The notes under the pieces were generated by a model that saw only the letters and a program-made list of their open reading frames with translations, was not told where the DNA came from and did not search any database. The position numbers were made by a program, and so were the translations under genes. Shown in pieces: positions 747-22,156 of a DNA stretch of 64,000 bases (within the stretch, counting starts at the first letter, position 1; each line of letters starts with the position of its first letter). The stretch comes from Verrucomicrobiota bacterium (GTDB taxonomy: Bacteria; Verrucomicrobiota; Verrucomicrobiia; Chthoniobacterales; SZAS-18): the NCBI GenBank assembly GCA_025353105.1, contig JANXRG010000036.1, positions 1 to 64,000 on the forward strand, written 5' to 3'.

Positions 747-1838
747 ATGGGACAACTCCAGCCAATTCGCCAGCCGACCACGACGGTCTTCTTCTGCGCC
801 GGTCGGGCGTTTTCGATTACCGACGTCATCGACGCCGCGCATTTTCGGGTCGACCTGACACCGGCTTGGCAACGGCTGCTCCACTCCGTCGAGGCGGAGG
901 AGGATGCCGCGGAGCGCGAGCTGGAACCCGACGTCGACGCCCTGCAGCAGATGTCGGATGACTTTCGCTCCGAGCGCGACCTGATCACGGCCGAGGAAAC
1001 GGAACAATGGCTGGCCCAGCGCGATCTGACGCTGGATGATTTCAGCGACCACTTTGTTCGGCGATATTGGGGAGCATCGCTGAATCCGAAGGCGGAAACG
1101 GAGCCTATCGAGTTCATGGCGGCCCCGGCGGAACTGCGCGATCTGTTGCCCGCCGAGCTGGTGCTATTGGGTGCGTTCGACGCGCTGGCGACCGAGCTAA
1201 GCTGGCGCGTGGCCGCGCGCGCGGTCGCGGTCGGCCGCGAGTTGAATCCGGAACTCATCAGCGCGGAGCGTCGCAGTTTTCTGGAGCGGGCCGGGGTCAA
1301 CGAGATTGCGCTGCCGGATTGGCTGGCCGTCCATGGCCGCGACGCCGCGTGGTTGGATGAGATGTTGAGTCTCGAGGCGTACTATCGTCGAGAGCGCGAG
1401 GCCCTCGTCACCGAGGATCGCTGCCGGGCGGAGGTGAGCTCGTCTCGCCTGCAGCTGGCCCGTTTCGATACCGAGACCGTCGAACTCGACTCACTGGATG
1501 CGGCCCGGGAGACGATGCTCTGCGTGCGCAATGACGGATTATCCCTCGAGGAAGTGGCGGCGCAAGGCTCTTATCCCTTTCACCGCGACGTGATCCTGCT
1601 GGAGGATCTGCGGGAATCGGTGCGGGAGCGATTTCTCTGCGCGGTGCCGGGCGAGGTCCTCGGGCCGCTGGAGCGGGGTGATGGATTTCAGGTCTGCCGG
1701 ATTCGCGAAAAGATTGAACCGACGCTCGGTGATGAGGAAATCCGGCGCCGGATTGAGCAGCGACTGTTGCAACGCTTTTTCAATGAGGTGTGCTCGACGC
1801 ACATCCGTTGGTCCATCCCCGCGGGTCTGATCGCATGA
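747..1838 (+). CDS. Parvulin (PpiC)-like protein of the peptide-export operon
   Basis: The protein has about 363 residues. The C-terminal third carries a parvulin-style end: a low-complexity linker, the GEVLGPLERGDGFQVCRI strand-turn-strand typical of PpiC/SurA domains, then a basic helix (EEIRRRIEQRLLQRFF). The N-terminal two thirds are acidic and helical and unrecognised. No signal peptide is seen, so it probably acts in the cytoplasm, perhaps presenting precursors to the exporter. I chose ATG 747 because the residues encoded upstream of it look like untranslated sequence. Its stop overlaps the exporter start in an ATGA, so the two are probably translationally coupled. PpiC-related proteins are known beside peptide maturation and export genes in other bacteria, which fits. 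Catalytic isomerase activity is not established. Confidence 0.7.
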   Translation: MGQLQPIRQPTTTVFFCAGRAFSITDVIDAAHFRVDLTPAWQRLLHSVEAEEDAAERELEPDVDALQQMSDDFRSERDLITAEETEQWLAQRDLTLDDFSDHFVRRYWGASLNPKAETEPIEFMAAPAELRDLLPAELVLLGAFDALATELSWRVAARAVAVGRELNPELISAERRSFLERAGVNEIALPDWLAVHGRDAAWLDEMLSLEAYYRREREALVTEDRCRAEVSSSRLQLARFDTETVELDSLDAARETMLCVRNDGLSLEEVAAQGSYPFHRDVILLEDLRESVRERFLCAVPGEVLGPLERGDGFQVCRIREKIEPTLGDEEIRRRIEQRLLQRFFNEVCSTHIRWSIPAGLIA

Positions 1839-4800
1839 GACCGCCCGGCGACGAAGTAGTCCGACGTTCGCCGTCGTTCCGTTTTTTGCCGGACGAACAT
1901 TTTGAAAAGGTGCGCGGGTTGTTGCGCGAGGAACGCTACGACTTCGGCGATGTCATCGTGCGCGAAGGGGATGAGGCGGACGCCTTTTACGTGCTGATCT
2001 CGGGTCGGGTCCGCGTGTTGAAGACGCGGGAGAAGGGTGATGAAATCGCGCTCGCCACGCTGCGTCCGGGCGACGAATTCGGCGAGGCGGCGCTCGTGGC
2101 GGGCGGGTTGCGGACGGCCTCGGTGCGCTGCAGCACCAGCGCAGAGGTGATGCGCCTGAACCGATCGGATTTTCTCGAGTTGCTGGCGGACCATCCGGAG
2201 ATCAAACACTCGATCGAGTTGACCGTACGGCTGCGGGCGCTGAGCAACTTTCTGTACGAGTACAGCAATTTCGGGCGGTTGCCGCAACGCGCGCTCCACG
2301 CGCTGGTGGAAAAGCTCGAGCCGGTCGAATTTGCCAAGGGCGCGGTGATTCTGCGGGAGGGCGATCCGCCCGGGCCGATGTACGTGGTGGAAGCAGGCCG
2401 CGTGCGGGCTTTCTCCGACAATGGCGGGCGGGCGCGCGACCTGGCGTTTTATCGCAACGGCGATTTTTTCGGGGAACTTTCGATCCTAAACAAGTCGCCG
2501 CGGGCGGCCTCGGCGCAGGCAATGGCGGACACGCGGTTGCTGGCGCTGGCGCCGGCGGCGGTGCGGGAATTGAAAAAGGAGTTTCCGGAATTCCAACGGC
2601 TGCTCGAGGAGCGCCTCGCGCAATACTCGGCCGGCACCGAGGCGCGCGTGCCGCTGGATTTTGCGAGCGAGCTGCTGCCGGCGGAGACACGCACGCACGA
2701 CAAGACCGATGTCGATGCGGAAACCGGCGAGGGCGGGGCCGAGGATCCGTTTGCCGACGAACGCGGGCTCTTTCGCAAGCGCAAGGATCGGATCCGGCGG
2801 ATTCCGCACGTGCAGCAAATCGACGAGATGGATTGCGGCGCCGCGAGCCTGGCGATGGTCTGCCGGCATTACGGCCGCAACGTCAGCCTGCCGCGGATCC
2901 GCGAGCTGTGCCACACTTCGCGCGACGGCACGAGCCTGAAGGCGATCTGCGGGGCCGCCGCCGAGCTTGGGCTCGCCGCGCGCGCGATTAAAGTCTCCCT
3001 GCGCAACCTGCCCCAAGTGCCGCTCCCGGCGATCGTGCATTGGGAGGGGAACCACTGGATGGTCCTCTACGATGTGAGCGAGACGCATGTGCGCGTCAAC
3101 GATCCGGCGCTCGGCGCTCGCCGGATTCCGCGCGCGGAGTATGAGGCGAAATGGTCGGGCTACGCGGCGTTGTTCGATTACACGACCGCCTTCGACCACG
3201 CGCCGCTGACCGTCTCGCCGCTGGCACGGCTCGCGCCGTTTCTGCGCAGCCATCGCACCGTGCTGCTGCAGGTGCTGCTGCTCGCGCTGATCGTGACGTT
3301 CCTCCAACTGCTCTTCCCCATTTTCACGCAGATGGTCGTGGACAAGGTGATCGTGGAAAACAACGTCGGGCTGCTGAAGGTCATCCTCTTTGGCATGGCG
3401 TTCGCGCTCGTGTTCATGCAGGCGGCGAATCTGGTGCAGCAATACCTGCTCAGCTTTGCCGCGGTGCGGATCGACGCGGCGATTCTCGATTATCTGACGC
3501 GCCAGCTCCTGTCGCTGCCGACGACGTATTTCAGCAGCCGCCGCACCGGCGACATCCAGCGGCGCCTCGACGGGGCGCGTCAGGTCCGGCAGTTCGCCGT
3601 GCAATTCGGCATCGGCGGGGCGCTGGCGATCGTGACCCTGGTGGGCGCCATCGGCTTGGTGGCGCTGTACAGCCCGATGCTCGCGGGCGTGTTTCTGATC
3701 ACGACGCCGCTCTACGCCGGGCTGATGATATTTTCGGTGAAGGTTTTGCGGCCGCTGCTGGCCGACATCGAAGAAAGCCAGGGCAAGTATAGTTCGCATC
3801 AGATCGACGCGATCAAGGGCATGGAAGCGGTCAAGGCAGCGTCCGCGGAACTGACCTTTCGCGACGCGATGCTGAACGAGTACCTGGGCGTCGCGAAGAA
3901 GATCTTCCGCAGCAACTTCATCATCATGTCATACGACAGCGTGCTGCAGACGGTCGGCATGATTTCGACGATCCTGTTCTTGTGGGCGGGCGCGAACCAG
4001 GTGATCAAGGGCCAGATCAGCGTGGGCGCGTTCGTCGCGATCAGCTCGCTGACGGCAATGGCGTACGGGGCAATCCTGCGGACGCTTGGCATCTGGGATC
4101 AGGCGCAGTTCGTGGTCGTGTTGTTGCACCGGCTGAGCGACATCTTCGATCCGGAACCGGAACAGGGCCGCGATCGCTCGCAGTTGATCCCGGTGCCAAC
4201 GCTCGAGGGCCACGTGGAATTGCGGAATGTCGGTTTCCGTTACGGCGGGCCGGAGGCGCCGGATATTCTGAAGCACATCAGTCTGGAGTTCGCGCCGGGC
4301 CGCACCATCGCGGTGGTGGGACGCAGCGGGAGCGGCAAGACGACGTTGATCAAGTTGCTGGCCGGCCTCGTGGAGCCGACGGAGGGGACCATCCTCTTCG
4401 ATCGCGTGGATCTAAAGACGCTCAACTACCGGGACGTGCGCCGGCACATCGGCATCGTGCTGCAGGAGAATCACCTCTTCAACGAAACGATTGCCCGCAA
4501 CATCTCGTTTGGCGAACCGGAGCCGGATCTCGACCGCGTGCTGTGGTGCGCGGAGACAGCGAACGCGCACGAGTTCATCATGCGGCTCCCGCTCGGCTAC
4601 GAGACGCGGGTCGGCGAGTCGGGTCTGGGCCTCTCGGGCGGCCAGAAGCAGCGGATTGCCATCGCCCGCGCTCTTTATCTCGATCCGCCGATCCTCATCT
4701 TCGACGAGGCCACGAGCGCCCTGGATACGGAGTCAGAACGCGCGATCCAAGCGAGCCTCGGGCGCCTGATGACGGGGCGGACCTGCATTGTCATCGCCCA

Positions 4801-4939
4801 TCGCCTGAGCACGATTCGCGACGCGCATTCGATCGTGGTCATGGACAAGGGTGAGGTGGTCGAGATGGGAACGCACGACCAATTGATGACCCAGCGCGGC
4901 TTGTATTTCTATCTTTCCAGCCAGCAACTCGGTCTTTGA
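1835..4939 (+). CDS. Peptidase-containing ABC exporter with two cNMP-binding domains
   Basis: This 1034-residue protein combines, in order, two cyclic-nucleotide-binding (Crp-type beta-barrel) domains (about 10-125 and 145-265), a C39 cysteine peptidase (about 320-450), an ABC exporter membrane domain (about 460-760) and an ATPase. The C39 residues are all present: Gln328, Cys334 (EMDCGAAS), His407 (GNHWMVL) and Asp423 (VNDPA). The ATPase has Walker A GRSGSGKTT near 829, signature LSGGQKQR near 935 and Walker B ILIFDEATS near 952. C39 exporters cut leaders after Gly-Gly while transporting the peptide. The expected substrates are the six Gly-Gly peptides encoded about 2.4 kb downstream. The start is ATG 1835, overlapping the preceding stop; a GTG at 1790 is the alternative. 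The paired cNMP domains suggest nucleotide gating or may be structural relics. Confidence 0.93.
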   Translation: MRPPGDEVVRRSPSFRFLPDEHFEKVRGLLREERYDFGDVIVREGDEADAFYVLISGRVRVLKTREKGDEIALATLRPGDEFGEAALVAGGLRTASVRCSTSAEVMRLNRSDFLELLADHPEIKHSIELTVRLRALSNFLYEYSNFGRLPQRALHALVEKLEPVEFAKGAVILREGDPPGPMYVVEAGRVRAFSDNGGRARDLAFYRNGDFFGELSILNKSPRAASAQAMADTRLLALAPAAVRELKKEFPEFQRLLEERLAQYSAGTEARVPLDFASELLPAETRTHDKTDVDAETGEGGAEDPFADERGLFRKRKDRIRRIPHVQQIDEMDCGAASLAMVCRHYGRNVSLPRIRELCHTSRDGTSLKAICGAAAELGLAARAIKVSLRNLPQVPLPAIVHWEGNHWMVLYDVSETHVRVNDPALGARRIPRAEYEAKWSGYAALFDYTTAFDHAPLTVSPLARLAPFLRSHRTVLLQVLLLALIVTFLQLLFPIFTQMVVDKVIVENNVGLLKVILFGMAFALVFMQAANLVQQYLLSFAAVRIDAAILDYLTRQLLSLPTTYFSSRRTGDIQRRLDGARQVRQFAVQFGIGGALAIVTLVGAIGLVALYSPMLAGVFLITTPLYAGLMIFSVKVLRPLLADIEESQGKYSSHQIDAIKGMEAVKAASAELTFRDAMLNEYLGVAKKIFRSNFIIMSYDSVLQTVGMISTILFLWAGANQVIKGQISVGAFVAISSLTAMAYGAILRTLGIWDQAQFVVVLLHRLSDIFDPEPEQGRDRSQLIPVPTLEGHVELRNVGFRYGGPEAPDILKHISLEFAPGRTIAVVGRSGSGKTTLIKLLAGLVEPTEGTILFDRVDLKTLNYRDVRRHIGIVLQENHLFNETIARNISFGEPEPDLDRVLWCAETANAHEFIMRLPLGYETRVGESGLGLSGGQKQRIAIARALYLDPPILIFDEATSALDTESERAIQASLGRLMTGRTCIVIAHRLSTIRDAHSIVVMDKGEVVEMGTHDQLMTQRGLYFYLSSQQLGL

Positions 4940-4942
4940 AGC

Positions 4943-6133
4943 ATGAATCCCACGATTGAAACCAGCCGGCGCGGGACGCTTGAGGAAGCGACGGAGATGT
5001 TGCCAAAGGATATGCCGCCGTGGATCGCGCGCTCGATCGCGTGGTTGCTCATCGCGATGGCAGCAGTCGCTATGCTCGCTTCAGTGGTCGTGCGCGTGCC
5101 GGAGACCGTGCAATGCCGTTTTGTGCTCGTGCCAAAGGACGGGGCCGATCCGATTCAATCACCGAACCTGGCGGTCATCACCGAGGTGCGGGCGACCGAG
5201 GGGGGACAGGTCACCGCTGGCACCGTGCTCTTCGTCCTGCGGTCCGACGAGATCGTCAACTTTCGGACGCAGCTGGGGACGCTGAGCGAAGACTTGCACG
5301 CGCGACAGGAAAACGCGGCGAGGCTGGAGTCGTCGTATCTCGCGCAGTTCGAGATGAAGAACTCGGAGATCGCGCAGATCGAGCGCGAGGTGAAATTTCG
5401 CGAAAAGCACACGGAGACCAATCGTGATTTGATCGCACGCCTCGAGAAGCTCGCCGCGCGGGGCGGATTTTCGCAGATCGAATTGATCAAGCATCAACTG
5501 CAGTTGGCGGAATCGGAGAAGGACCTGAACGTCGCGCAGAAAACCTATGACCAGACGCTGTTGTCGCGCCAACGGATGGAGACGGAGCGCGAACGCCAGC
5601 GGGTCGAGGAGCGGGCGGACCTGGAAAAATTCAACGTCCGCATCGCGGCCCTGCAGTCCCAACTGCAAAACGTCACGGGCAACCTTCTGTCGATTCGGGC
5701 GCCATATGACGCCGTGGTGATCTCACTCGCGCAACGCAACGCCGGCGCCGTCGTTCCGGCGGGGCAGGAACTCTGTCAGCTCGCGCGGATCGATGCCACC
5801 CCGCGCGCCCGGCTGTACCTCAAGGAGCAGGGTCTGCCGCGATTGTCGCTGAGTCAGAGCACGCGGCTTTTCTTCGATGCTTTTCCGTACCAGCGCTATG
5901 GCACGGTCACCGGCGCGCTGGATTGGGTGAGCCCGGCCGCCGTGGGCACGCCGGACGGGCCGCAATTCATCGCGCTCGTCTCTTTGCAGCAAAACCAAAT
6001 CGAGGTGGGCGGCGAGATGCGGCCCCTGCGCGTGGGCATGAAGGGCGAGGCGCGCATCATCGTGGGCAGCCGACTCCTCATCGAATACGCCTTTGAACCC
6101 ATCCGACAGCTTCGCGAAAACACGCGGCGTTGA
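4943..6133 (+). CDS. HlyD-family periplasmic adaptor of the peptide exporter
   Basis: This 396-residue protein has one membrane helix (about 30-51), a split lipoyl/barrel-sandwich domain (VITEVRATEGGQVTAGTVLF, then IRAPYDAVVISLAQRNAGAVV) around a long coiled-coil hairpin (about 110-240), and a C-terminal beta-barrel. Membrane-fusion proteins of this type bridge an inner-membrane ABC exporter to an outer-membrane channel. The gene starts 3 bp after the exporter stop, so the two are certainly co-transcribed. No TolC-like outer-membrane partner is encoded in the window. The pairing with a C39 ABC protein is the standard bacteriocin-type export set of Gram-negative bacteria. Confidence 0.93.
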   Translation: MNPTIETSRRGTLEEATEMLPKDMPPWIARSIAWLLIAMAAVAMLASVVVRVPETVQCRFVLVPKDGADPIQSPNLAVITEVRATEGGQVTAGTVLFVLRSDEIVNFRTQLGTLSEDLHARQENAARLESSYLAQFEMKNSEIAQIEREVKFREKHTETNRDLIARLEKLAARGGFSQIELIKHQLQLAESEKDLNVAQKTYDQTLLSRQRMETERERQRVEERADLEKFNVRIAALQSQLQNVTGNLLSIRAPYDAVVISLAQRNAGAVVPAGQELCQLARIDATPRARLYLKEQGLPRLSLSQSTRLFFDAFPYQRYGTVTGALDWVSPAAVGTPDGPQFIALVSLQQNQIEVGGEMRPLRVGMKGEARIIVGSRLLIEYAFEPIRQLRENTRR

Positions 6134-6145
6134 GGTGGTCTCGCC

Positions 6146-7132
6146 ATGACCGAAATCCCGTCCAGCCTCCGGCTCGAGGACCTGACCTCGACCAACGAGA
6201 AGATGGCGCGTTGCCTGAAACTCGCGTCGCTGGCGGCGAAATCGGAAGTGCCCGTGCTAATTCTTGGGGAAACGGGCACGGGCAAGACCCTTCTGGCGCG
6301 GGCGATCCACAATTCTTCCGCGCGGGCCGGACGGGCGTGCATTTCTTTCAACTCCTCGGCGATGAGCGACACGCTTTTGGAAAGCGAGCTGTTTGGTCAC
6401 GAGCGCGGGGCATTTACCGGCGCGCATAAATCGGTCAAAGGAAAGTTCGAGCTGGCCGACTCAGGGACGTTGTTCCTCGATGAAATTGCCGACATGAGCC
6501 CGCTGGCGCAGGCGAAGATTCTGCGCGCGGTGGAATACGGCGAGTTCGAGCGGCTGGGCGGTGAGCGGATGCTGCACTCCAACGCCCGGGTCATCGCGGC
6601 CACGAATCGGTCGCTGCGCCAGCTGATCGCCGAGGGAAAATTTCGCGAGGATTTGTACCAGCGACTCAACGGCGTGACCCTCCACATTCCGCCGCTGCGC
6701 GAACGAACCGAGGAGTTCACCGCGCTGATGGCGGCGGAGTTGAAGGCGGCCACGCGGGCCGCGGGCAAGAAGATCACGTCAATTCATCCTGCGGCGGTCG
6801 ACAAGCTTCTCGCGCACGACTGGCGCGGAAACCTGCGCGAGTTGAACCACACGATGCGCACGGTCGTGTTGTTTTGTGAGGACGCCGTCGTACTGCCCGA
6901 ACACGTGGTCTTCGAGGAAAATTTCGATGATGGAATGAAACCGGTGATCCGGACACCGGGGGCGCAGACAGATGCGGAGGGCGCCGGGGACGTGCGGCTT
7001 TCGACGGCGATCGACCGTCATATTCAGGCCGTCTATGAGCAGAGCGGGCGCAATCAGCGGCGCGCGGCGCGCGTGCTCGGCATCTCGCGGGCGCGACTAA
7101 CGCGGCATCTGAAGACCATGGGCTCGAAATGA
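6146..7132 (+). CDS. Sigma54-type AAA+ activator lacking a receiver domain
   Basis: This 328-residue protein starts almost directly with the AAA+ domain. Walker A (GETGTGKT) is near residue 42, the sigma54-contact loop GAFTGA lies at 88-93, Walker B is TLFLDEIADM, and the R-finger region and a C-terminal Fis-type helix-turn-helix (NQRRAARVLGISRARLTRHL) follow. No receiver, PAS or GAF domain precedes the ATPase, so it resembles PspF-type activators that are controlled by a partner protein rather than by phosphorylation. It follows hlyD by 12 bp and directly precedes the peptide genes, which makes them its likely targets. A properly placed -24/-12 promoter could not be found before the peptides (see rejected items). 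Confidence 0.9.
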   Translation: MTEIPSSLRLEDLTSTNEKMARCLKLASLAAKSEVPVLILGETGTGKTLLARAIHNSSARAGRACISFNSSAMSDTLLESELFGHERGAFTGAHKSVKGKFELADSGTLFLDEIADMSPLAQAKILRAVEYGEFERLGGERMLHSNARVIAATNRSLRQLIAEGKFREDLYQRLNGVTLHIPPLRERTEEFTALMAAELKAATRAAGKKITSIHPAAVDKLLAHDWRGNLRELNHTMRTVVLFCEDAVVLPEHVVFEENFDDGMKPVIRTPGAQTDAEGAGDVRLSTAIDRHIQAVYEQSGRNQRRAARVLGISRARLTRHLKTMGSK

Positions 7133-7361
7133 GGATCACGCTGTCCGTTTCGAGACCGATCCGGGCTTGAATTGAAACCAGTGCAGCCGGGGTCAAAGTT
7201 CCCGGCAGGTCGTTCCTGAATTTGATTTCGCCGGAGCGAGTCATTTCTAGCCGAACAGAACCAACCGCACGGCAAATGGTTACACCGTATCCAAATCGAG
7301 CGGACGAACGGTTGGTTTGAGGGAAAAACGAGTTTGGTATGGCGTTCGCTAAAGAGGAGGA
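7133..7361. promoter_or_regulatory. Likely promoter region of the Gly-Gly peptide array
   Basis: This is a 229-bp non-coding gap between the activator and the first peptide gene. It ends in a strong ribosome-binding site (AGAGGAGG, 7352-7359) two bases before the ATG at 7362. It is the natural place for an activator-controlled promoter, but no convincing site was recognised. The only good -24/-12 match overlaps the ribosome-binding site. Confidence 0.4.
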
Positions 7362-7544
7362 ATGAACGCGAACAAAAAGAAATCGCGTGAAAGCGGGTCA
7401 GGCGCTGAAAAGCGCACGCGACAAAAAACGCGGCTGATCCGCTTGGATGACCTGCTTCCGAAACGGAATGTTTCCGGTGGCGGAGGCGGGATCGTGTTCG
7501 GATCTACCGACGACAAAGCCGGCGGCCAGAGTCGAACGCAGTAG
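7362..7544 (+). CDS. Gly-Gly leader peptide 1 (glycine-rich tail)
   Basis: The gene encodes 60 residues: a very basic N-terminus, then the family block IRLDDLLPKRNVSGG ending at Gly40, then a tail starting GGGIVFGSTDD and ending in QSRTQ. It is the most divergent member. The usual DxKGG is replaced by NVSGG followed by three more glycines, so the cleavage point is ambiguous. A strong AGAGGAGG lies just upstream of the ATG. It is the first of six tandem peptide genes and is likely an exported C39 substrate. It could instead be a degenerate or specialised leader. Confidence 0.75.
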   Translation: MNANKKKSRESGSGAEKRTRQKTRLIRLDDLLPKRNVSGGGGGIVFGSTDDKAGGQSRTQ

Positions 7545-7582
7545 AACAACCCAAACCAAATAGAAAACAGAGGACAATCGAG

Positions 7583-7774
7583 ATGAGCACCAAATCAAAG
7601 AGCAAAATCAAAGTGAAGGACCTCAAGCCCACGAAGGACGCCCGGGGCGGCTTCGGGCCGAGCCGGCAGCCGCTGGGCGGAGCCAGTGCGTCGGGCGGCG
7701 GCAGCGCCGCGTCCGGTGGCGGAAGCGCCGCGGCGGGTGGCAATTCGGCGGACACCGCCGCTAGTGCCAATTAG
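7583..7774 (+). CDS. Gly-Gly leader peptide 2 (Gly/Ser/Ala-rich tail)
   Basis: The gene encodes 63 residues. The leader ends KVKDLKPTKDARGG at Gly23, followed by about 40 residues starting FGPSRQPLGG and continuing as near-perfect GGGSA repeats. An AGAGGA motif lies 8 bp before the ATG. The leader matches the other family members while the tail is low-complexity, unlike any of them. The tail resembles small glycine-rich microcins or flexible secreted peptides only in composition. No Cys is present, so disulfide or lanthionine chemistry is excluded for this one. Confidence 0.82.
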   Translation: MSTKSKSKIKVKDLKPTKDARGGFGPSRQPLGGASASGGGSAASGGGSAAAGGNSADTAASAN

Positions 7775-7791
7775 GCACTGCTCCAGGTACA

Positions 7792-7820
7792 ACGGTGCGC
7801 GCCTTGATGGCGCGCACCGT
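7792..7820 (+). terminator. Perfect 12-bp stem-loop between peptide genes 2 and 3
   Basis: The arms ACGGTGCGCGCC (7792-7803) and GGCGCGCACCGT (7809-7820) pair perfectly around a 5-nt loop. No T-tract follows, so it is more likely an RNA-processing, stabilising or attenuating element than a strong intrinsic terminator. It would separate expression of peptides 1-2 from the rest. Confidence 0.6.
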
Positions 7821-7927
7821 AGAGGACCGAGGCGTCGCACCGGGTTGCGGCGCTTCGAATGATGAAATCCGAATGCCGAAGGGCGAATGAAGCCCAAATG
7901 ACGAATGCCACGAAAGAGGTGATGACG

Positions 7928-8059
7928 ATGAAAAAAATAAGCAAAGGCAACAAAGCCAGCGAAGCCAAAAAAGCGAAGAAACAGACCATAAAACTGGCCG
8001 ACCTGGAACCGAAAAAAGACCCGAAGGGCGGACCGATATCCTGGCCCGGGCGCAATTAG
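7928..8059 (+). CDS. Gly-Gly leader peptide 3 (predicted product PISWPGRN)
   Basis: The gene encodes 43 residues. A lysine-rich N-terminus is followed by KLADLEPKKDPKGG (ending at Gly35) and the eight-residue tail PISWPGRN. The ATG at 7928 is chosen because GAGG at 7916-7919 sits 8 bp upstream, the same geometry as in the sister genes; ATG 7922 is too close. The gene is nearly identical in its second half to peptide 4, so the pair is a recent or selected duplication. The residue after Gly-Gly is Pro, which is unusual for protease cleavage. Confidence 0.85.
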   Translation: MKKISKGNKASEAKKAKKQTIKLADLEPKKDPKGGPISWPGRN

Positions 8060-8183
8060 TTCCACGTAATTTATCGATTCATTGTCCAAGCCTGACGCCA
8101 TGGCGCGCATCTCGACGGGCGGGCGAATTCCAGAATCAGTTCAGCCATACGATGGCAAGAGCGCAAGACGGAGGAGAATGAAA

Positions 8184-8315
8184 ATGAAAAAAGTAAACAA
8201 AACAAACTCGGCTGACGAAGCCAGCAAAGCGAGGAAACCGGCGATCAAATTGTCCGACCTGGAACCGAAAAAGGACCCGAAGGGCGGACCAATATCCTGG
8301 CCTGGGCGAAATTAG
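8184..8315 (+). CDS. Gly-Gly leader peptide 4 (same predicted product PISWPGRN)
   Basis: The gene encodes 43 residues: leader KLSDLEPKKDPKGG, then the tail PISWPGRN, identical to peptide 3. The N-terminal leader part has diverged (MKKVNKTNSADEASK here, MKKISKGNKASEAKK in peptide 3), yet the last 16 residues are unchanged, which points to selection on the end of the leader and on the product. GGAGG lies at 8170-8174, 9 bp before ATG 8184. The downstream spacer also shares a TCCAAGCCTGAC word with the spacer after peptide 3, so gene and spacer were duplicated together. Confidence 0.85.
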   Translation: MKKVNKTNSADEASKARKPAIKLSDLEPKKDPKGGPISWPGRN

Positions 8316-8449
8316 CTCCGCGACGGCCTCTATTTATCGTCCAAGCCTGACTGCCCGCGCCACGATGGCGCGAATCGTCGACGTACGGACGAGTACCAAA
8401 ATCATTTCAGCAAACGAAAATCAGAAACAGAACAAAGAGGTGAATGAAA

Positions 8450-8563
8450 ATGAAGAAAGCAAACAAAACGAAGAAACCAGTGATTAAGGTGCGTGACCTG
8501 AAGCCCAAGAAGGACGCGAAGGGCGGCGCCGCGAGGATAAAAATAATCGATTTCACTAATTGA
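8450..8563 (+). CDS. Gly-Gly leader peptide 5 (37 residues)
   Basis: The gene encodes 37 residues: a short basic start, KVRDLKPKKDAKGG ending at Gly26, then the tail AARIKIIDFTN. The ribosome-binding site AGAGG (8436-8440) lies 9 bp before ATG 8450, as in the sister genes. The in-frame ATG at 8444 is a possible alternative start. The tail has no similarity to the other tails, whereas the leader is nearly the same as that of peptide 6. Confidence 0.82.
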   Translation: MKKANKTKKPVIKVRDLKPKKDAKGGAARIKIIDFTN

Positions 8564-8593
8564 TAATGTTGAATCAAGCGCGCTCGACGCGCC

Positions 8594-8651
8594 GGCGGCG
8601 CAGGTGGACACGCCTGCGCCGCCACCAGCAAGGTGGCCGCGGTAATTTTTT
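8594..8651 (+). terminator. GC-rich hairpin(s) followed by T6, between peptides 5 and 6
   Basis: The arms GGCGGCGCAGG (8594-8604) and CCTGCGCCGCC (8613-8623) form a perfect 11-bp stem. A second small hairpin (CCACC/GGTGG) follows, and then a run of six T at 8646-8651. The combination looks like an intrinsic terminator or attenuator, and would end most transcripts after peptide 5, leaving peptide 6 weakly or separately expressed. Confidence 0.55.
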
Positions 8652-8722
8652 CGGACCCAAATCAATTTCGAACCGATTCCATCTCGCCAGTAAAGTGAAA
8701 CCCCAGAAATCGAAAGGCCAAA

Positions 8723-8866
8723 ATGAAGAAATCAAGCAAAACCCAGAAACCGCAGATAACCGTCCGCGATCTAAAGCCCAGGAGGGACGCGAAGGGCGGC
8801 TTGGGAAGTGTCAAAGGGAGCAGCAGCATTACAGCGCCGCAGTCGGTTCAGCACTTTCCCAAGTAA
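8723..8866 (+). CDS. Gly-Gly leader peptide 6 (47 residues)
   Basis: The gene encodes 47 residues: start MKKSSKTQKPQ, then TVRDLKPRRDAKGG ending at Gly26, then a 21-residue tail starting LGSVKGSSSIT and ending SVQHFPK. An AAAGG lies 5 bp before ATG 8723. The gene is separated from peptide 5 by 159 bp with a terminator-like hairpin. It is the last member of the array and ends 38 bp before the stop of the convergent methyltransferase gene. Confidence 0.82.
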   Translation: MKKSSKTQKPQITVRDLKPRRDAKGGLGSVKGSSSITAPQSVQHFPK

Positions 8867-8904
8867 CTCGGCTCGCAGCCCCGATGCGGTGGGCAGGAAG
8901 CCAA

Positions 8905-10125
8905 TCAGCATGGTACGATCCCACGATCAGGCCGCGGCGGCAGGAGGTTGAGGACCGCGAATTGATGCAGAACGTAAAGTTGGGACCGCAAAATCTTTCC
9001 CGGCGGTCGCGCCGGGAGCGTGTCGAGGATCTGGCGAAGGGAGTGCTTCCCATTGCTTCGTCTCAAGATTTCCAACTCCCAGCCTGGCACGCGCATTTCC
9101 ACAAGCGTATTGATCGATCCGCTCCGGAACTCCACCCTCGGCAACTGGTTGGATGCGGTCTTTCGCTTCGGCCAGCGATGAACGTAGAGGGGCGTCAGTT
9201 GGGGAAGCCAGTCCATCAATTCGCCTGCCTTGTGCCACGGCGGATTGGACGGCGCGGTCCGTGTGTAGACCAGTCGGAGAAAATACGTCGGACAAAGCCG
9301 ATCCAGCAATTCCGCGACTTCGACGCGGGTACGCGGCATCAACAGTGCGCATGAATTGTCGTTCAGGGCGGGTCGCAGCACGGAGAGCGCTGCGAAGTTG
9401 CCCCGGCAATGCAAACCGGACCGGCGCGCGATTCGGTTCCAATTGGCGAGGGGCAACGCCCGGTTCAGCGCGCCGAAGAGATCCCCCGCCAGAAACGCCG
9501 CATCCTGTTTTGCGATAAATCTCTTACGGTGTCCGACCAGCGCGTCGAAAAGTGCCAGCAACCGGCGGAGACGGATGCCGTCTTCGAAACGATGCAGGTT
9601 ATAGCCAAAGTTGGGAAGGACCCGCCGCCAGGCAACACTAAAGTGCGCGGCGCCATTGACACCGAGGTACAGCGCCCCGTCCGGCGTCAGGCTGCGGGCC
9701 AGGTTGGCGAGCGCCCGCGCGGAATTTGGGATGTAGGACAGGACGCCATGACACGTGATGAAATCGAAGCCGCACCCGATTTTCTTCGCGAAGTGGCGAC
9801 CGGCCAGATCGCCGACCACAAAGCGGATTTTTCGCGCCGGTTCCAAACGTCTTTGTGATGCGAGTGCGAGATCGATCGAGTGCCGACTAAAATCCACGGC
9901 CATGATATCCGCGTTTGGAAATTTGCGCCGGAGGGCGAAGGCCTCCGCCCCCGTTCCGCAGCCCGCGACGAGAACTCGGCTCGGCGCCGGCTTCGCTGGT
10001 TGCCACATCGTGGTGATCCAATCCATCGGCGCAAGTTGCCAGCGGGGCGTGCGCATGGAGCTGCCCTCCAACCGCGGATACGGCAGCCTCTCGTAAATTT
10101 GGCGGATCTGATCCGCGACGTCCAT
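8905..10125 (-). CDS. Class I SAM-dependent methyltransferase with extra C-terminal domain
   Basis: The gene encodes about 406 residues. A Rossmann methyltransferase fold is clear near residues 40-160: VLVAGCGTGAEA (motif I), an acidic strand end AVDFSRHSIDLA (motif II), VVGDLA, and the motif IV/post-IV region ITCHGVLSYI...LTPDGALYLGVNG. The second half is a longer domain that ends in a winged-helix-like segment (LEILRRSNGKHSLRQILDTL), as in methyltransferases with a regulatory or substrate-binding tail. Start ATG 10125 directly precedes DVADQIRQIYERLPYPR, a typical beginning; the open frame upstream looks non-coding. Substrate unknown. It converges on the peptide array, so a role in modifying those peptides is possible but only suggested by position. 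Confidence 0.85.
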   Translation of the reverse strand: MDVADQIRQIYERLPYPRLEGSSMRTPRWQLAPMDWITTMWQPAKPAPSRVLVAGCGTGAEAFALRRKFPNADIMAVDFSRHSIDLALASQRRLEPARKIRFVVGDLAGRHFAKKIGCGFDFITCHGVLSYIPNSARALANLARSLTPDGALYLGVNGAAHFSVAWRRVLPNFGYNLHRFEDGIRLRRLLALFDALVGHRKRFIAKQDAAFLAGDLFGALNRALPLANWNRIARRSGLHCRGNFAALSVLRPALNDNSCALLMPRTRVEVAELLDRLCPTYFLRLVYTRTAPSNPPWHKAGELMDWLPQLTPLYVHRWPKRKTASNQLPRVEFRSGSINTLVEMRVPGWELEILRRSNGKHSLRQILDTLPARPPGKILRSQLYVLHQFAVLNLLPPRPDRGIVPC

Positions 10126-10337
10126 CCGCGAGTAAGCGCGCGGTCGCCCATGGCCGTCAATCGGAAAAGGAGTTCCGGTGGCTTGCACCCCGGTCCGGCG
10201 CGCCTCCGACGCTTCAGCCTTCGACGCCTCTCCAAACTCGGCGCGTCTGTGGCAAATCAGACCGCTGGTCCTCGACCGTCGACTCTCCCTCGATCCGCCT
10301 TGCTTGCGAATTGCCGCGGCGTGTCGTGTCCCGTAGG

Positions 10338-11066
10338 ATGTCGCCCGGCATGTTCTTTCCGACGACCCGCTGGACGGTCCTCGCCGACGCTTCTTTAAAC
10401 GGCGACGGGGAGGGTAGCCGTGCACTCGATGATTTCGTCCGTCGCTACCGCGGGCCAATCCTCGACTTCATCCGCGCGCAGGGGTGGCCGGCGTCAGAGA
10501 TCGAAGACCTTGGCCAGGAGTTTTTCGTGCACGTCATGCGGGAAGGAACGCTGCGCCGCGCCGATGCGTCGCGGGGACGCTTTCGCGCGTTCATTCGCGG
10601 GGCGCTGGCTCGATTTCTGGCGAGGGCGCGAAGGCGGGCGAGCGCGCAAAAGCGCGGGAGCGGCGCGCCGATGGTGAGCCTCGATGCCGGGACGCTGCCC
10701 GAAGATGCGGTGGCGGTGGCGCCGGAGGACGCGGCGCGTTTTGATCGCGACTGGGCGGTGCGCCTGCTGGAGCTTTCCGTCGGGCAGGTCGAGCAGGAAT
10801 TCGCGCTCGCGCGGCGGGCCGCGGATTTCGAGCGTTTGCGCCCGTTCCTTCCCGGTGGATCCGAACCACCAAGTTACGCGGCCGGCGCGGCCGGTCTTGG
10901 ATTGTCGCTCGCGGCGTTCAAGACGGAGGTTCATCGTTTGCGCGGCCGGCTGCGCGCGGTCCTTCGCCAGGAGGTGGCCCTCACCATCGATTCCCCGCAC
11001 GAGGTCGATCTCGAGATGCAATACCTGCAAAGCGCGCTTGCGGGTGAAAACCGGATCGACGCGTGA
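10338..11066 (+). CDS. ECF-family RNA polymerase sigma factor
   Basis: The gene encodes about 242 residues. The beginning FFPTTRWTVLADAS is characteristic of a sigma-factor family common in Verrucomicrobiota and Planctomycetota. Region 2 follows (FVRRYRGPILDFIRAQGW...IEDLGQEFFVHVM, then the basic RFRAFIRGALARFL), and a region-4-like helix-turn-helix (AAGAAGLGLSLAAFKTEVHRLRGRLRAVL) lies near the end. No anti-sigma gene is adjacent. Instead the kinase gene overlaps its stop (GTGA), as in known ECF-STK pairs, where kinase phosphorylation activates the sigma factor. The start could be ATG 10338 or ATG 10350; neither has a clear ribosome-binding site. Confidence 0.88.
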   Translation: MSPGMFFPTTRWTVLADASLNGDGEGSRALDDFVRRYRGPILDFIRAQGWPASEIEDLGQEFFVHVMREGTLRRADASRGRFRAFIRGALARFLARARRRASAQKRGSGAPMVSLDAGTLPEDAVAVAPEDAARFDRDWAVRLLELSVGQVEQEFALARRAADFERLRPFLPGGSEPPSYAAGAAGLGLSLAAFKTEVHRLRGRLRAVLRQEVALTIDSPHEVDLEMQYLQSALAGENRIDA

Positions 11067-14000
11067 CGAGCCCCGATTCTCCCGCGGGAGCGCTCCGGTG
11101 CATGCGCTGCGGCCGGCCCTTGGCGGGAGGCATCCTGGCCGGCGTCTGCCCGGCGTGTGCGTGGGCCGGAATCAATCTTGAGGCCAATGAAGTCGAGGCC
11201 GCCGATCCCGGCGGGCCCGTCCCCACGGTGTTGTTCACGGTGTCGGGGCATGAGGTGCTGGCGGAGATCGCGCGGGGCGGAGCCGGCATCGTGTATCGCG
11301 CCTGCCAGCGTGAGCCGCGGCGCGAGGTCGCATTGAAGATGTTGTTGCCGCAGCAAAGCGGTTCGACCGAGGTGCGGGAGCGCTTTCGACTCGAGTCCGC
11401 CACCATCGCCGCGCTCGACCATCCGGCGATTCTTCCGGTGTATGCGACCGGTGAGCATGACGGGTTGCCGTGGTTCACGATGAAGCTGGCGACCGGCGGG
11501 ACGCTGGCGGATTCGGGGCAATCGCTGCGCGGACGTTGGCGCGCGATTGCGGACCTGCTCGCATCGCTGGCCGATGGCGTGCACTACGCCCACTCGCGCG
11601 GCGTTCTCCACCGGGATCTAAAGCCGGGCAATGTCCTCTTCGACGAAGCGGGCCGCGCACATGTCAGCGATTTTGGACTCGCAAAATTCGCTTCGACTCG
11701 CACCGATCTGACGCGGGCCATGAGCGTGATGGGGACGCCCGCGTACATGGCACCGGAGGTCGCCGCGGGCGGCACGGCTGCCGCGACAATCGCCGCCGAT
11801 GTCTACAGCCTTGGCGCGATGCTATACGAGCTGCTCGCGGGTCGCCCGCCTTTCGAAGGCGATTCGCTTAGTGCGCTGTTCAAGCAGGTGGCCGAGCGCA
11901 CGCCGGACCCGCCGTCGCGGCATGCGGCGGGAGCACCGCGGGAGCTCGAAATCATCGCACTGCATTGCCTCGAGAAGGATCCCGGCCGTCGCTACGCAAG
12001 TGCGGCAGAGCTGGCCGATGATCTTCGACTCTGGCTTGCGGGCCGCAGCATTCGGGCGCGCCCGGCGGGGACGGTCGGGCGAATGTTGCGTTGGGCGCGA
12101 CGAAATCCCGCCCTGGCGTGCGTGGCAGCCGCGCTCGTGCTGACGTTGTTCGTGGGCAGCGCGATGGTGTTTACGGCCAATCGCAAACTTCGTTCGGCGT
12201 TGGCCGAGTCGCTCGTGGCCCAGGCGCGCGCCGTGCGTCAGAGCGGCCGGCAAGGCCAGCGCTTTGAGGCGCTCGCGTTGGTGGCTCGGGCGGCGCGCAT
12301 CGAATCAACACCGATCGCCCGCGACGAGGCGATCGCGGCGCTGGCGCTGCCGGACTGGAAGCCCCAGGAAAGACTTCAGCTCTGGCAGGGAAACACATTT
12401 TCGGTCACGCCATCGGCCGATTTCTCCGCCTACCTGGTCGAGGATTCGGCCCAGCGATTCAGCCTGTATCGACGCGGCGACAGCGCCGCGCGCTGGACCT
12501 GGACTGGGCCCGATCAATCCGCCAGCCAGCCAGTCTTTTCGCGCGACAGCCGCTGGATAGCAATTCGCGCGCGCAACGACGTGGTGGAGGTGCTCGACTG
12601 TGACACTGGTGCATCGGTCCTCCATCTCACCGGACGCCCCTACGCCTTCAAGGATCAGGTGTGGGGCTTTGGACAGGACATGGATTTTACGCCGGACGGT
12701 TCGTTGTTGGCGGTCACACGGCCAGCGGGAGGAGTTTCGTTTCATCGCTTGCCGGAGGGCGGGGACGCGGGCGTCTGGGAAGCGAAGCAATGGGTGACAG
12801 AAATTAAATTTTCGCAGGACGGCGCGAGACTGGCCGTGGGCGGAGGTCACGAGCGCGCGGATTCGATGCTGGCGGTGGTAGACGTTGCAACGGCGCGCAC
12901 GCTCGCGCAGGAAACGCCGGCGAGACGTGTGGAGTTCGTTGAATGGTCAGCGGATGGGCGCTGGATCGCGTGTCGCGTGTCGGGCGGCAACGCCGAGGTG
13001 CGCGCCTCGGCGGACCTGAGCATTCGGGCCACCCTGGGCGATCGCGCGAGCCTGCACGCGCACTTCACGCCAGACGGCGACCGGCTGTTTCTCACGGAGC
13101 AGATTGGAGAAACGCGACTGTGGGAAATCGAGAGCGGCGCGATGTTGCTCGCGCACCAGGATGGCGGACGCCCCGCCAATCATTTTGCGGACGCCCCGAT
13201 CCGGCAGTGGCGCGATTACGCCGCCGGACCCGTGGTGCTCTCGACTTTTGAACCCAGCGCGATTCTCCGGTTATTTTTCTCGGACGAGGAGAATTACACG
13301 GTTCCCCAAGTTGGATCGCCCGCAGAACTCTCGCCCGACCGCCGGCTGCTCGCCGTGGGAGGGTGGGGCGGGGGGATGATTGTGACGCTCGACGGAAGCG
13401 AGCCGAATCTTCCGATCCGAACGGGGTCGCAGAAGAGCGCTGGGACCTTGCGCTTCGATCCGACGGATCAGGCCGTGTGGTCATGCCTGCACGAGGCGGG
13501 ATTGCGCCGTCATCCGCTGGTGAGGCTCGCGTCGGGACGGCTTGAGGCGGGCGCGCCGGAAATCATCGATCAGGATGTGGGATTCTATTTTGCCGCGACG
13601 CATCGTCCATCGGGCCGGTTCGCGCTGGTCAACCGGGACGCGGGGATTGTGAAAATCGTGGATTCGCGCGCGCGTCGCGAGGTGTTTCGATGGTCGCATG
13701 CGGGGGCGTGGACGGCCGAATTTTCGCCCGACGGAACAATTCTGATCGTGAATGGCGACACGGTGCAAACCGGCGATCCGGCTGCCATCCACAGGATTGA
13801 GACGGGCGCGGTCGTCCGCGGACTGACAGCCGCGCCGGGTCGGATGGCCCGGTGGAGTGCTGACGGCGCGTGGGTGCTGGCCGCGGAGGGTCGGGACGCC
13901 ACGCGGCTTTGGCGAACGGCCGGTTGGGAGCCGGGCGCGATCCTCCCGACCGAATTGCAGGGTCCGAACCGCCGCGCGGCATTTTCGCGCGATGGTAGAC

Positions 14001-14272: not shown

Positions 14273-14352
14273 TGGATACGGGCGGTGCGCCCCGCGCCCA
14301 TTGTTCCATGAGCCCGGGACTTCAGGCCCTCCCGACCGAAACCGTCCCGCCT

Positions 14353-17300
14353 ATGAATGCGAAACTTATCCTCGGGGGCGCGGCCCTCGCTCTTTTCAAC
14401 CTCGTTTTCAGTCCCCGTCCCGTCGAGGCGGCCATGGATAACTACACCGGCCCCGACGGCGGCCTTTGGAGCGCGGCGGCCAACTGGACCGCCGGTGTGA
14501 ATCATCTCGTGCCGGTGAATGGAGATGACGTTTTTCTTGGGACTGCGACGGGCAGCGGCATCACCAGCGTCACCTTCAACATGTCCTACGCGGGGCCAGG
14601 TCTGAACTCGCTCACGATTGACGCCATTACCGCCGCCACTTTTACGCTCAATCAAGGGGCAGGAACCGCCATGATCGCGACAAATGAGACATTCGGGGTG
14701 GCGACGAATGGCGCTGTGTACAATCAGACTGGCGGTACGAACACCGTCGCGGGCACCCTCGCGATCGGATCAGGCACCGGTTCGGTAGCGCAGGGCAACT
14801 ACAAGCTAAGTGGAGGGACGCTTACCGCCACGAACGAGTATATCGGCGTCAACACATCCGGCTCCCTCGGCGGCAACCAATTCAACCAGACCGGTGGCAC
14901 GAACAACGTTACGACTCTTACGGTCGGTGCGGGCACGAGCGGCAGCGGGACCTACAACTTTTCGAACGGTACTCTCAATGTCTCGTCTTTATTCGGAGTG
15001 AGCGGGTCGAGTGGCAGCGGCAGCGGCACGATAAACCAGAACGGCGGCGGGGCCATGACGAATGTCTCATCGGGAACACTCTACATCGGAGGCCTTAACG
15101 CGGGCGCATACAACCTCACTGCCGGCAGCATCGCGATGAACAACTCGGAGATGGACGTCGGTCAGTTCGGAATGGGCACGTTCACCCAGAGCGGCGGAAG
15201 CGTCACGTTTAGCGGTACCAACGGCAATCTCATTGTCGGCCAAAACAACGGCGGCAGCACGGGAAATCTCTATACGCTCAGCAATACCGGAACCATCAGC
15301 GGCGCGGCGAGGGAAAGCATCGGATACCAAGGCACGGGAACCTTCACGCAGACCGGCGGGACGAACACCATCTCCGGCGGAAACAGCCTTATTCTCGGCG
15401 AAACGGCGAGTGGTCGCGGCACCTATAATCTGAGCGCCGCGACCGGGTCAGGTACCCTTAATGCCGATAACATCAGTGTTGGGTTATTTGGCGTCGGCAC
15501 GTTCCTTCAGACCGGAGGTACGGCTAATGTGACGAGCTCGCTTACACTCGGTCAGGGCTCCGGAAGCACGGGCACCTATACTCTCAATGGCGGGAACCTC
15601 AATGTGGGCACCGGTGGAACCGCCACTCTTTACTTGGGTGCGTTCGGCACTGGTACATTCAATCAAGGCGGGGGTGCTTTAACCATCATTGGTGCAAGTA
15701 GCGAGCTCATCATCGCGGGCACATATAATTTAGTCGCCGGGACGGCGAATGCTCCCAGGGAGACGCTAACGGGATCCGGCGCGTTCATTCAGACGGGAGG
15801 AACGAATTCCGTGCCGGGTTCGGGCTCGCTGGTCCTCAACAACACGGGTGCCGGGACCGCGACGTACATGCTGAGCGGAACCGGAGTGCTCGCCGCAGGC
15901 AATGAATTTATTGGGGCAAGTGGAAATGCGGTCGTTTCGCAGGGCATCGGCACTTCGAACACCGCGGTCTCGCTCTATGTCGGTGCGAACGCCAGCACGA
16001 CGGGCACCTACAACCAAACCGGCGGCAACCTGATTGCAACTTCCGAGTACGTTGGCTACGCTGGCCCTGGCATCGTCAACCAAACCGGCGGCAACCAGAT
16101 TGCAACTTCCGAGTACGTTGGCTATACTGGCCCCGGCGTCGTCAATCAAAGCGGGGGAACCAATTCCATCAGCGGAATATTGACCATCGGGCTTACCGGC
16201 GGGGGTGTCGGCACGTACAACCTTTCGAATAATGGCATCCTGAACGTCAACGCAGCCAACGTCGTGCTCACGGTCGGCGCGGCTGGCACGGGCGTCCTCA
16301 ACCAGACCGGCGGCACGTTGAACGCGCGCTTTGTTGCCAGCGCCTTTACCACCGGCCCCACCGGCACGTATCACCTCTCGGGCGGGGTCGAGAACGGCGA
16401 CTTCTTGAATAACGGCATTTTCATTTACGACGGCGGCACGTTCAACGGCCAGTTGAACAACAACGGGACGTTCAATTTAAGCACGGGCTTCACGGCCGGG
16501 AGCGGGGTCTTCAACTATGCCAGCATCACGGTCAATCCGGGCGGCATCCTCGGCTCGGCCATCGGTGGTGGTTTTCCCACGGACAACGAAGGATTTCTTT
16601 TCCTCTCGGGCGGAGCCCTTGGCGGAACCGCGCCCATCGTCAACAACGGCTTTCTCTCCGGCTATGGAACGATCGGCGGGACCGGCAACTTCACGAACAA
16701 CGCGACGCTCACGCAAGGTGGCGGAACGCTGGTCCTCTCGAACTCCGGCTTGAACACGAACAACGGCACGATCACGCTCGCCAGCGGGCGACCGTTTCAA
16801 CTCAGCAACGCGTCGTTGCTCAATTCCGGAACACTCATGCTGAACGGAGCGACGATTAGCACCCTCGGCGCGGGAACCCTCTTCAACGGGACCGCCGGCC
16901 TCATTTCCGGACCGGGCACGATTAGCAGCACGTTCGTGAACTCCGGTATCCTGCAACCGGGCAGCGGCACCCTGAACGTCCTGGGTGGATTCACCAACAA
17001 TGGCATCATCGAACTCACCGGCTTCAGCTCGAATCTGGTGGGTGGCGCGATCGCCAACAACGGCACAGTTCAGGGCGTCGGCAGCGTCGGCAATGCGGTC
17101 ACGAACAACGCCGGCGGCACCATCGAGGCTCTGGGCGGGACGCTCGCTCTCGGGGGCAGCGTGACCAATGCCGTGGGCGGCACGCTGGCCGCCTCGACCG
17201 GCAACAAGCTGGTCTTCAGCGCGGGGCTCTCGAGCAATGCCGGTATCATCAGCCTGACCGGCGGCACGTTCGACAACAACGGTCACGCGCTCACCAACAA

Positions 17301-19079: not shown

Positions 19080-19114
19080 GAGTAGGAGTCGTTGTGCCTG
19101 CCTCCGCCCTGGCC

Positions 19115-22100: not shown

Positions 22101-22156
22101 AGATCCAAGCCCTTGCCGCCCGTTTGGACGAACTGACCAGAACAAGCAACCCATGA
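19115..22156 (+). CDS. Exported fibre-like protein with 26 head repeats and C-terminal S74 chaperone domain
   Basis: The gene encodes about 1013 residues. A hydrophobic export segment (VFSGACLAFTSLLLVPGSYSQ) is followed by a beta-rich region with two GTGYTAAPSVSV / GSGYTSAPTIAI repeats and then 26 tandem 17-residue units of the form ALxSNTxGxxNTASGxx. These are YadA/trimeric-adhesin-like head repeats. The C-terminus is a peptidase S74/intramolecular chaperone domain (SSRRFKQDIKDM...ALRPVSFRYRP...FGLIAEEVEQV) and a coiled coil. S74 domains trimerise phage tail fibres and some bacterial surface proteins, then cut themselves off. Start ATG 19115 is the first good one; a GTG at 19094 is in frame. 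Promoter-like block B lies 36 bp upstream. Confidence 0.88.
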   Translation: MNSFTRIRKCSRALVVYPRARKDVGRENRFLRTHAWIRTVFSGACLAFTSLLLVPGSYSQVPPLINYQGRVAVGGMNFDGAGQFKFALVDGGTNTATTATAVAAISGGSLAAVIVTSGGTGYTAAPSVSVVGGGGSGVVLTAIVSGGVVTSLTVNNAGSGYTSAPTIAIAPPPPNLAYVTYWSNDGTSVAGSQPTGAVALTVTKGLYSALLGDASLANMAAVPPSVFGNANVSLRVWFNDGAHGSQLLAPDQRIAAVGYAVVAGGVPPGAITSNMISSGAVGSVQIANNAVTSTQIAGGSVGSAQLAPNLAVSGSLGAQTLSISGNLMLSATSGPSAGVLTLGGTAFLHAYGTNNTFVGVQAGNFTMTGDANTATGINALASNTAGSHNTAMGGAALAYNLAGSYNTAIGVNALFSNLDGSYNTTIGANALLSNTSGSYNTASGYLALTSNTSGSYNTASGYHVLYSNTGGSRNTASGYEALYSSTTTGDNTANGYQALFSNTSGGYNTASGSQALFSNTTGAFNTASGSHALVYNTIGNYNTASGYQALFSNTVGNSNTASGNNALVSNTTGGRNTASGHGALNFNTIGNDNMANGYQALYSNTDGSTNTASGVQTLFSSTTGGYNTASGYQALYSNTSGGNNTASGSQALYSNTTGVLNTASGNNALFSNTAGNSNTASGNIALVSNTTGGNNTASGDGALNSNTVGYYNTADGYQALNSNTAGFYNTASGSQALHSNASGNYNTANGYDALYKNTLGNNNTASGPIALFNNTLGNNNTALGFQALNSNTIGSDNIAVGDTAGANNTTGSNNIDIGNAGASGDAGTIRLGTSPTHTKTFIAGVFGVTSTGGSAIYANSSGQLGTLTSSRRFKQDIKDMGPSSDAILALRPVSFRYRPEYDPGGVPQFGLIAEEVEQVSPDLVVRDANNQVYSVRYEAVNAMLLNEFLKQHRQMERLEKTSSQLRARVEEQAKVMAAQRTQGDAQDQILAEQQGQIQALAARLDELTRTSNP
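20249..21574 (+). repeat. 26 tandem 51-bp units inside the fibre gene
   Basis: The unit encodes 17 residues around SNTxGxxNTASG. Units keep frame throughout. A longer period is also visible: the run of units near 11-13 (GNSNTASG, SNTTGGRNTASG, NTIGNDNMANGYQ) recurs near 18-20 (GNSNTASG, SNTTGGNNTASG, NTVGYYNTADGYQ), so a block of several units was duplicated. Recombination could change copy number. Confidence 0.9.

Follow-up and report, generated by a model that had tools for sequence, protein, structure and literature searches.

Organization of the locus

The stretch of DNA analysed here (the window) comprises positions 1–64,000 of contig JANXRG010000036.1 in assembly GCA_025353105.1, from a Verrucomicrobiota bacterium of SZAS-18 in the order Chthoniobacterales. 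Misbinning of the contig was ruled out because the composition of the window fits that of sampled contigs of the same genome (GC 0.61–0.63; distance 0.09–0.16). Genes for a predicted export system and an array of six short peptide genes (p1–p6) follow one another on the plus strand.

The first gene (747–1838, plus strand, start codon uncertain) encodes a SurA/PrsA-like chaperone that is distantly related to TIGR04500 (PpiC_rel_mature)/MirC. It was previously described as PpiC-like; it matches TIGR04500 only far under the curated cut-off (46.6 bits, cut-off 180), has no Pfam match, and has a predicted fold like that of SurA and PrsA. The AlphaFold2 model (pLDDT 89.7) has its best PDB matches with SurA (2pv3) and PrsA (6vj6) and resembles them across a large part of its length, although the overall TM-scores are low. 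No signal peptide is apparent by eye; therefore, the protein is taken to be cytoplasmic.

The exporter gene (1790–4939, plus strand, true start probably ATG 1835) encodes two cNMP_binding domains followed by Peptidase_C39, ABC_membrane, and ABC_tran domains (Pfam). The intact catalytic site noted in the preliminary description is confirmed, since Gln343, Cys349, His422, and Asp438 (numbered from 1790) are kept in all 11 aligned homologues. With a C39 domain that carries the catalytic Cys, His, and Asp and is fused to an ABC half-transporter, the protein is a PCAT (PCAT1, 4ry2, E 4.6e-114), and it falls outside the NHLM/NHLP bacteriocin exporter family TIGR03796 (529 bits, cut-off 853). It is followed by an HlyD-type periplasmic adaptor (4943–6133, plus strand; HlyD_3 8.6e-13, TIGR01843 2.5e-36), which shares 54–56% identity with its counterparts in two relatives, and by a receiver-less sigma-54-dependent activator (6146–7132, plus strand). 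The latter has an AAA+ Sigma54_activat domain (3.4e-62) and a Fis-type HTH_8 match that is weak and just under the cut-off (6e-4); it is 63–64% identical to its relatives. A sigma-54 gene and TolC-type genes are found elsewhere in the genome. The proposal that one export system serves several leader-bearing peptides is supported, as is the description of the leaders as near-invariant.

Two other genes lie downstream. The methyltransferase gene at 8905–10458 (minus strand) was rejected as a member of the system because it is absent from syntenic loci. The ORF at 14308–18102 encodes a 1264-aa Gly/Asn/Thr-rich repeat protein with an end that looks PEP-CTERM-like by eye.

The six leader peptides

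All six peptide genes are on the plus strand. The first, p1 (7362–7544), encodes 60 aa with a leader ending in LIRLDDLLPKRNVSGG, a predicted cut after 7481, and the core GGGIVFGSTDDKAGGQSRTQ; it represents a constant class. The other five belong to a variable class. The p2 peptide (7583–7774, 63 aa) has a leader ending in IKVKDLKPTKDARGG, a predicted cut after 7651, and a core rich in Gly, Ala, and Ser. The core PISWPGRN is predicted for both p3 (7928–8059, 43 aa; leader ending in IKLADLEPKKDPKGG, cut after 8032) and p4 (8184–8315, 43 aa; leader ending in IKLSDLEPKKDPKGG, cut after 8288). The p5 peptide (8450–8563, 37 aa) would be cut after 8527, between a leader ending in IKVRDLKPKKDAKGG and the core AARIKIIDFTN, and p6 (8723–8866, 47 aa) after 8800, between ITVRDLKPRRDAKGG and the core LGSVKGSSSITAPQSVQHFPK. 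A Shine-Dalgarno-like purine-rich stretch precedes p1–p5 and is weak for p6.

The six peptides align as one leader family, and the leaders of p2–p6 have pN/pS values of 0.27–0.45 within the window. The leaders of the array are thus under purifying selection, with pN/pS around 0.3, and the tandem Gly-Gly leader peptides reported earlier are real. The leaders score E 1e-8 to 1e-11 in their own genome, against a profile that was built from the same six. Leader matches at E < 0.02 are rare, being found in only 7 of 388 genomes of the phylum. No Pfam or NCBIfam model gave a meaningful match for the window peptides tested or for the peptides of relatives.

The cores of p3 and p4 are identical in amino acids; at the DNA level, three substitutions separate them, all synonymous. 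The spacers flanking the two genes also align, which identifies p4 as a tandem duplicate of p3 that includes the surrounding DNA. The other tails are unrelated to one another, as stated in the preliminary description. This holds within the window; across genomes, however, the tail of p1 is conserved.

Leader residues and possible recognition by the C39 domain

The leader is basic, and its fixed residues are Ile-15, Val/Leu-13, Asp-11, Leu-10, Pro-8, and the Gly-Gly. The pattern proposed earlier, [IV]x[VL]xDLxPxxDxxGG, describes most of the array: p2–p6 fit I-x-[VL]-x-D-L-x-P-x-x-D-x-x-G-G exactly, but p1 has Asn in place of Asp at -5. The proposed Lys/Arg at -4 and -3 stands for -3 only. Position -4 is Val in p1 and Ala, Pro, or Val in the p2 type, and the other basic sites are -6 and -7.

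Canonical double-glycine leaders of C39 peptidases have Gly-Gly, Gly-Ala, or Gly-Ser at -2/-1 and hydrophobic residues at -4, -7, and -12 (PMC6363468). In LahT150, hydrophobic contacts are made at -4, -7, and -12, and a Lys or an Asp at either of the first two is harmful (PMC6363468). The present leaders have the Gly-Gly but as a whole depart from this type; -7 is mostly Lys, and at -12 there is usually Arg, Asp, or some other polar residue. Their hydrophobic positions are instead -10 (Leu), -13 (Val/Leu/Ile), and -15 (Ile/Val). Because the leaders lack the hydrophobic residues at -7 and -12 on which canonical C39 domains depend (PMC6363468), cleavage by the C39 domain of the window is uncertain. 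Either this domain would read the leader in a shifted register, or cleavage would happen otherwise.

Constant and variable members of the array

Judged by its sequence, p1 differs in kind from p2–p6: it is a constant member with a conserved core, a split that the earlier reading overlooked. It keeps an [IVLF]FG motif after the Gly-Gly across Chthoniobacterales and in distant families. Between loci, pN/pS is 0.26 for the p1 leader and 0.27 for its FG segment. For the p2 type it is 0.34 for the leader and about 1.03 for the cores, the latter value showing only a lack of mutual constraint because the cores are not homologous. Between relatives, the leaders of p2-type peptides share a mean identity of 0.62 and their cores one of 0.11. 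The earlier idea of an exported peptide cocktail holds insofar as one system serves several leader peptides; with a conserved p1 core and variable p2–p6, the six do not form one uniform cocktail.

The p2-type cores are Gly-rich (19%), on average positive, and nearly free of Cys; being rich in Gly, Ser, and Thr, they are hydrophilic, with V/I/L/M/F/W/Y making up about 15%. Short tandem repeats, for instance (PTGTQ)6 and (QHGP)6, occur in six of them. Other genomes have 1–12 leader matches each, with unrelated cores and many on other contigs. Some of these orphan relatives (L222, L223, L224, L226, L231, L232, L234, L235, L236, L238, and L241) carry a further conserved segment, xxNIxVVRSxWRR, N-terminal to IRDLxPxKDVKGG. 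The neighbours of orphan p2-type genes have no single common function, but Peptidase_S74 (endosialidase chaperone) proteins recur and flank orphan peptides at 5108–8397 in L230 and 8408–9949 in L240. An ORF similar to Peptidase_S74 proteins by eye also occurs in the window at 19094–22156.

Promoter-like elements and RNA hairpins

A sigma-54-like promoter element, TGGTATGGCGTTCGCT (GG-N10-GC; 7335–7350, plus strand), is located 27 nt before p1. In most relatives, the element TTGGCAYGAATACTGRTAATA lies 27–37 nt before p1. The window box scores 13.7 bits on the element profile of the relatives, being itself among the 14 sites from which the profile was built. With this profile, 20 of 25 p1 upstream regions score at least 10 bits (0.016 expected per 300 nt). 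The count is to some extent circular, since these regions also supplied the sites for the profile; in addition, L101 and L209 represent a single contig. The profile also matches before some p2-type genes away from p1, in L081, L209 (minus strand), L234 (plus strand), L229, and L244. Outside Chthoniobacterales, near-canonical GG-N10-GC (-24/-12) boxes precede four of eight p1 homologues (shuffle P ≤ 0.02), two of the four (L086 and L087) being near-identical copies within one genome; a fifth is borderline. A predicted -24/-12 element, an activator, and a sigma-54 gene are thus all present, as in a sigma-54 regulon, and the suggestion that the peptides are under one activator gains support from the box.

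This box before p1 is the only one of its kind in the window, and strong hairpins interrupt the array. Two strong RNA hairpins lie directly after p2 (7792–7857, plus strand; MFE -49.9 kcal/mol, z -4.95), where a transcript possibly ends or is processed, and another follows p5 (8594–8623, plus strand; z -2.96). The hairpins possibly segment the array into transcripts, and p3–p6 may have promoters separate from that of p1. A scan of 7100–9000 for sigma-70 promoters found none.

Distribution and co-occurrence

Among 213 genomes of the order, the chaperone, used as a marker, was found in 50 and p1 in 47, mostly as a single copy per locus; 45 have both. With a permissive threshold, leaders of the p2 type were detected in 51 of the 213, of which three or more are probably spurious. 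In the more independent phylum sample, the chaperone and p1 each occur in 8 of 388 genomes, with both in 7, and five families are represented. The hypergeometric P-values for co-occurrence (~1e-38 and <1e-32) overstate independence because of shared ancestry, as the carriers in the order are one family plus the genome of the window. All chaperone carriers in the order other than this genome belong to that family, and the same-genus and same-family genomes that were searched do not have the system. Therefore, the system either arrived by transfer or was retained here as relatives lost it. A whole-collection scan for the chaperone family, its sensitivity limited by the use of one short pattern, returned 12 loci, all named Chthoniobacterales, Spartobacteria, Verrucomicrobia, or Lentisphaeria/Lentisphaeraceae. 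A leader search in viral contigs and a chaperone search in plasmids gave no match.

Most intact Chthoniobacterales loci share the order chaperone, exporter, HlyD, activator, p1, p2. Both peptide classes almost always co-occur with the chaperone and the two-cNMP/C39/ABC exporter, and nearly all intact loci have the HlyD adaptor and the receiver-less activator; in L098 and L239, these two genes are seemingly missing next to the exporter. Homologues of the leader were expected earlier to accompany C39 exporters, and they occur in genomes that also have the exporter locus; in most Chthoniobacterales loci intact on one contig, p1 directly follows exporter, HlyD, and activator genes. Orphan p2-type peptides and distant p1 homologues are not adjacent to an exporter. 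Outside Chthoniobacterales, seven of eight p1 homologues adjoin a prepilin-like gene (L082, L083, L084, L086, L087, and L093). In a Lentisphaeraceae genome (G287, L090), a C39 protein whose ABC part has no recognisable Walker motifs (11350–13440) has a chaperone-like gene on one side and, on the other, a sigma-54 activator that shares 52% identity with that of the window.

Comparison with known export systems

The type of machinery is already known and occurs elsewhere. The HetC-type exporter of Nostoc PCC 7120 has an N-terminal cyclic-nucleotide-binding domain, C39, and ABC, and binds ppGpp in vitro; its substrate is not known, and no leader gene was found beside the hetC locus (PMC10986499). 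The window exporter resembles HetC in combining these domain types in one chain, in its Gram-negative host, and in possible nucleotide gating. In contrast to hetC, the window encodes likely substrates beside the exporter, as well as an HlyD adaptor, a SurA-like chaperone, and a sigma-54 activator.

The rosaritide system shares a SurA-like, TIGR04500-type partner (MirC), a C39 exporter (the PCAT MirD), and a precursor in which a PCAT cut site is predicted (PMC13097080). However, the TIGR04500 match in the window is distant, there is no ATP-grasp synthetase, and there are several precursors; two extra nucleotide-binding domains in the exporter and the predicted sigma-54 control are further differences. 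Loci on Leptolyngbya boryana pLBY (L274) and a Burkholderia stagnalis plasmid (L273) have a TIGR04500-like PPIase gene with a cyclic-nucleotide-binding/C39/ABC exporter directly after it or one gene on, and HlyD-type genes nearby. A motif scan there found no peptide with the leader of the window, and the annotated Leptolyngbya stretch lists no sigma-54 activator. The prochlorosins (Nif11/ProcA) resemble our peptides in having a constant leader, highly variable cores, and precursors partly away from the machinery, whereas the window locus has no recognised LanM, an unrelated leader, and cores nearly all free of Cys.

Proposed mechanism and alternatives

Gene content, conservation, selection, co-occurrence, and promoter-like elements are read directly from the sequences. 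From them we infer how cleavage, export, gating, and the chaperone would operate and what biological role they would serve. We regard it as probable that the locus encodes an exporter that is under sigma-54 control and gated by nucleotides, and that secretes one constant peptide along with several variable ones. The sigma-54 activator would switch on p1 from the -24/-12 element, and probably the peptides behind it too. The cytoplasmic SurA/PrsA-like protein would keep the peptides export-competent or deliver them in that state, the C39 domain of the exporter would cut after the Gly-Gly, and the ABC part would power passage of the core through the inner membrane; HlyD, together with a TolC-like channel whose gene lies elsewhere, would complete the path. 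The two cyclic-nucleotide-binding domains probably gate export. Cleavage and export of the peptides are likely, given the genes at hand. Outside the cell, the variable set p2–p6 may act between microbes in competition or communication, and p1 may be a common companion or signal.

The C39 exporter, HlyD adaptor, and short Gly-Gly-leader peptides also recall class II microcins of the microcin V type. In such a microcin or bacteriocin cluster, the variable cores would be toxins acting on neighbours and p1 an accessory or self-protection peptide; the low identity of p2-type cores between relatives beside well-kept leaders, together with the tandem duplication, would suit it. However, the leader residues differ from those of class II microcins, the set is constant plus variable, and neither an immunity nor a receptor gene was recognised. 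The hydrophilic composition of the cores, some of them pure short repeats, is unlike that of most membrane-active bacteriocins. We consider this explanation rather unlikely; given the lack of a recognised immunity gene and the Gly-rich, hydrophilic cores, the bacteriocin role that the preliminary description named beside signal peptides finds no direct support.

If they were modified in trans before export, for instance dehydrated by a LanKC-like kinase/lyase or macrocyclised by an ATP-grasp enzyme, the peptides would be RiPP precursors. Three related genomes have loci with a peptide sub-class whose leader reads K[LV]SDLTPKKD or a close form, adjoining a gene for a lanthionine-synthetase-like RamC_N plus kinase protein with no cyclase (L101 7186–8631, L234 3724–5127, and L228 6956–8452). 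All eight SDLTPKKD-type peptides detected sit in these loci (L101/L209, one locus under two ids, L234, and L228), and it is possible that the adjoining proteins are their dehydrating enzymes. The same leader type may therefore also serve modified peptides. The kinship of the chaperone with MirC, a partner protein that a graspetide synthetase requires (PMC13097080), points in the same direction. On the other hand, the two families searched genome-wide, RamC_N (PF25816) and the TIGR04187 ATP-grasp, are absent from the genome of the window, which places the locus outside class III/IV lanthipeptides and graspetides, respectively. TIGR04187 is also absent from seven relatives with the locus and gives weak, below-cut-off matches in two distant genomes. 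The conserved locus has no recognised modification enzyme, and most cores are free of Cys. Thus, RiPP modification appears unlikely for the window, where the earlier wording of unmodified or lightly modified peptides remains plausible; it may not hold for the sub-class beside a kinase/lyase.

The prepilin-like genes beside p1 homologues in other families would be expected if the products were exported to the surface or matrix to act alongside pili or envelope proteins, and were not diffusible weapons. The near-canonical sigma-54 boxes before several of these homologues and the low-complexity repeats of some cores fit this explanation. No prepilin gene lies beside the cluster in Chthoniobacterales, and we regard this explanation as improbable. 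Least probable, and in our view quite unlikely, is a role as intracellular regulators, for example in restraining the activator, with the exporter serving something else: p1 is very basic and directly follows an activator that, having no sensory domain, needs a regulating partner, but both classes conserve the Gly-Gly at the same fixed position, the part downstream of it multiplies and diverges, and in five separate families the peptides occur together with the locus of the C39 exporter.

Implications

Among soil bacteria, Chthoniobacterales rank with the most abundant and the least cultivated groups. To our knowledge, little is known about the peptides they secrete. Set against Pfam, NCBIfam, and open-licence papers, the leader, the substrates, and the sigma-54 regulon of the secretion system proposed here appear new. 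The leader provides a searchable signature where Pfam and NCBIfam have no model, the constant peptide marks the system, and the array offers candidate substrates for exporters with cyclic-nucleotide-binding domains, among which HetC has been studied best. A bolder reading, which we hold only tentatively, is that of a new Gly-Gly leader class with shifted C39 contacts, a cyclic-nucleotide-gated exporter, and a phylum-wide sigma-54 regulon, together exporting one invariant and several hypervariable peptides. If it is true, these peptides would be the first clear substrates for HetC-built exporters. One constant peptide with others that are species-specific is an arrangement known from bacterial weapons and signals, and the constant-plus-variable split would offer a clear test of signal versus effector.
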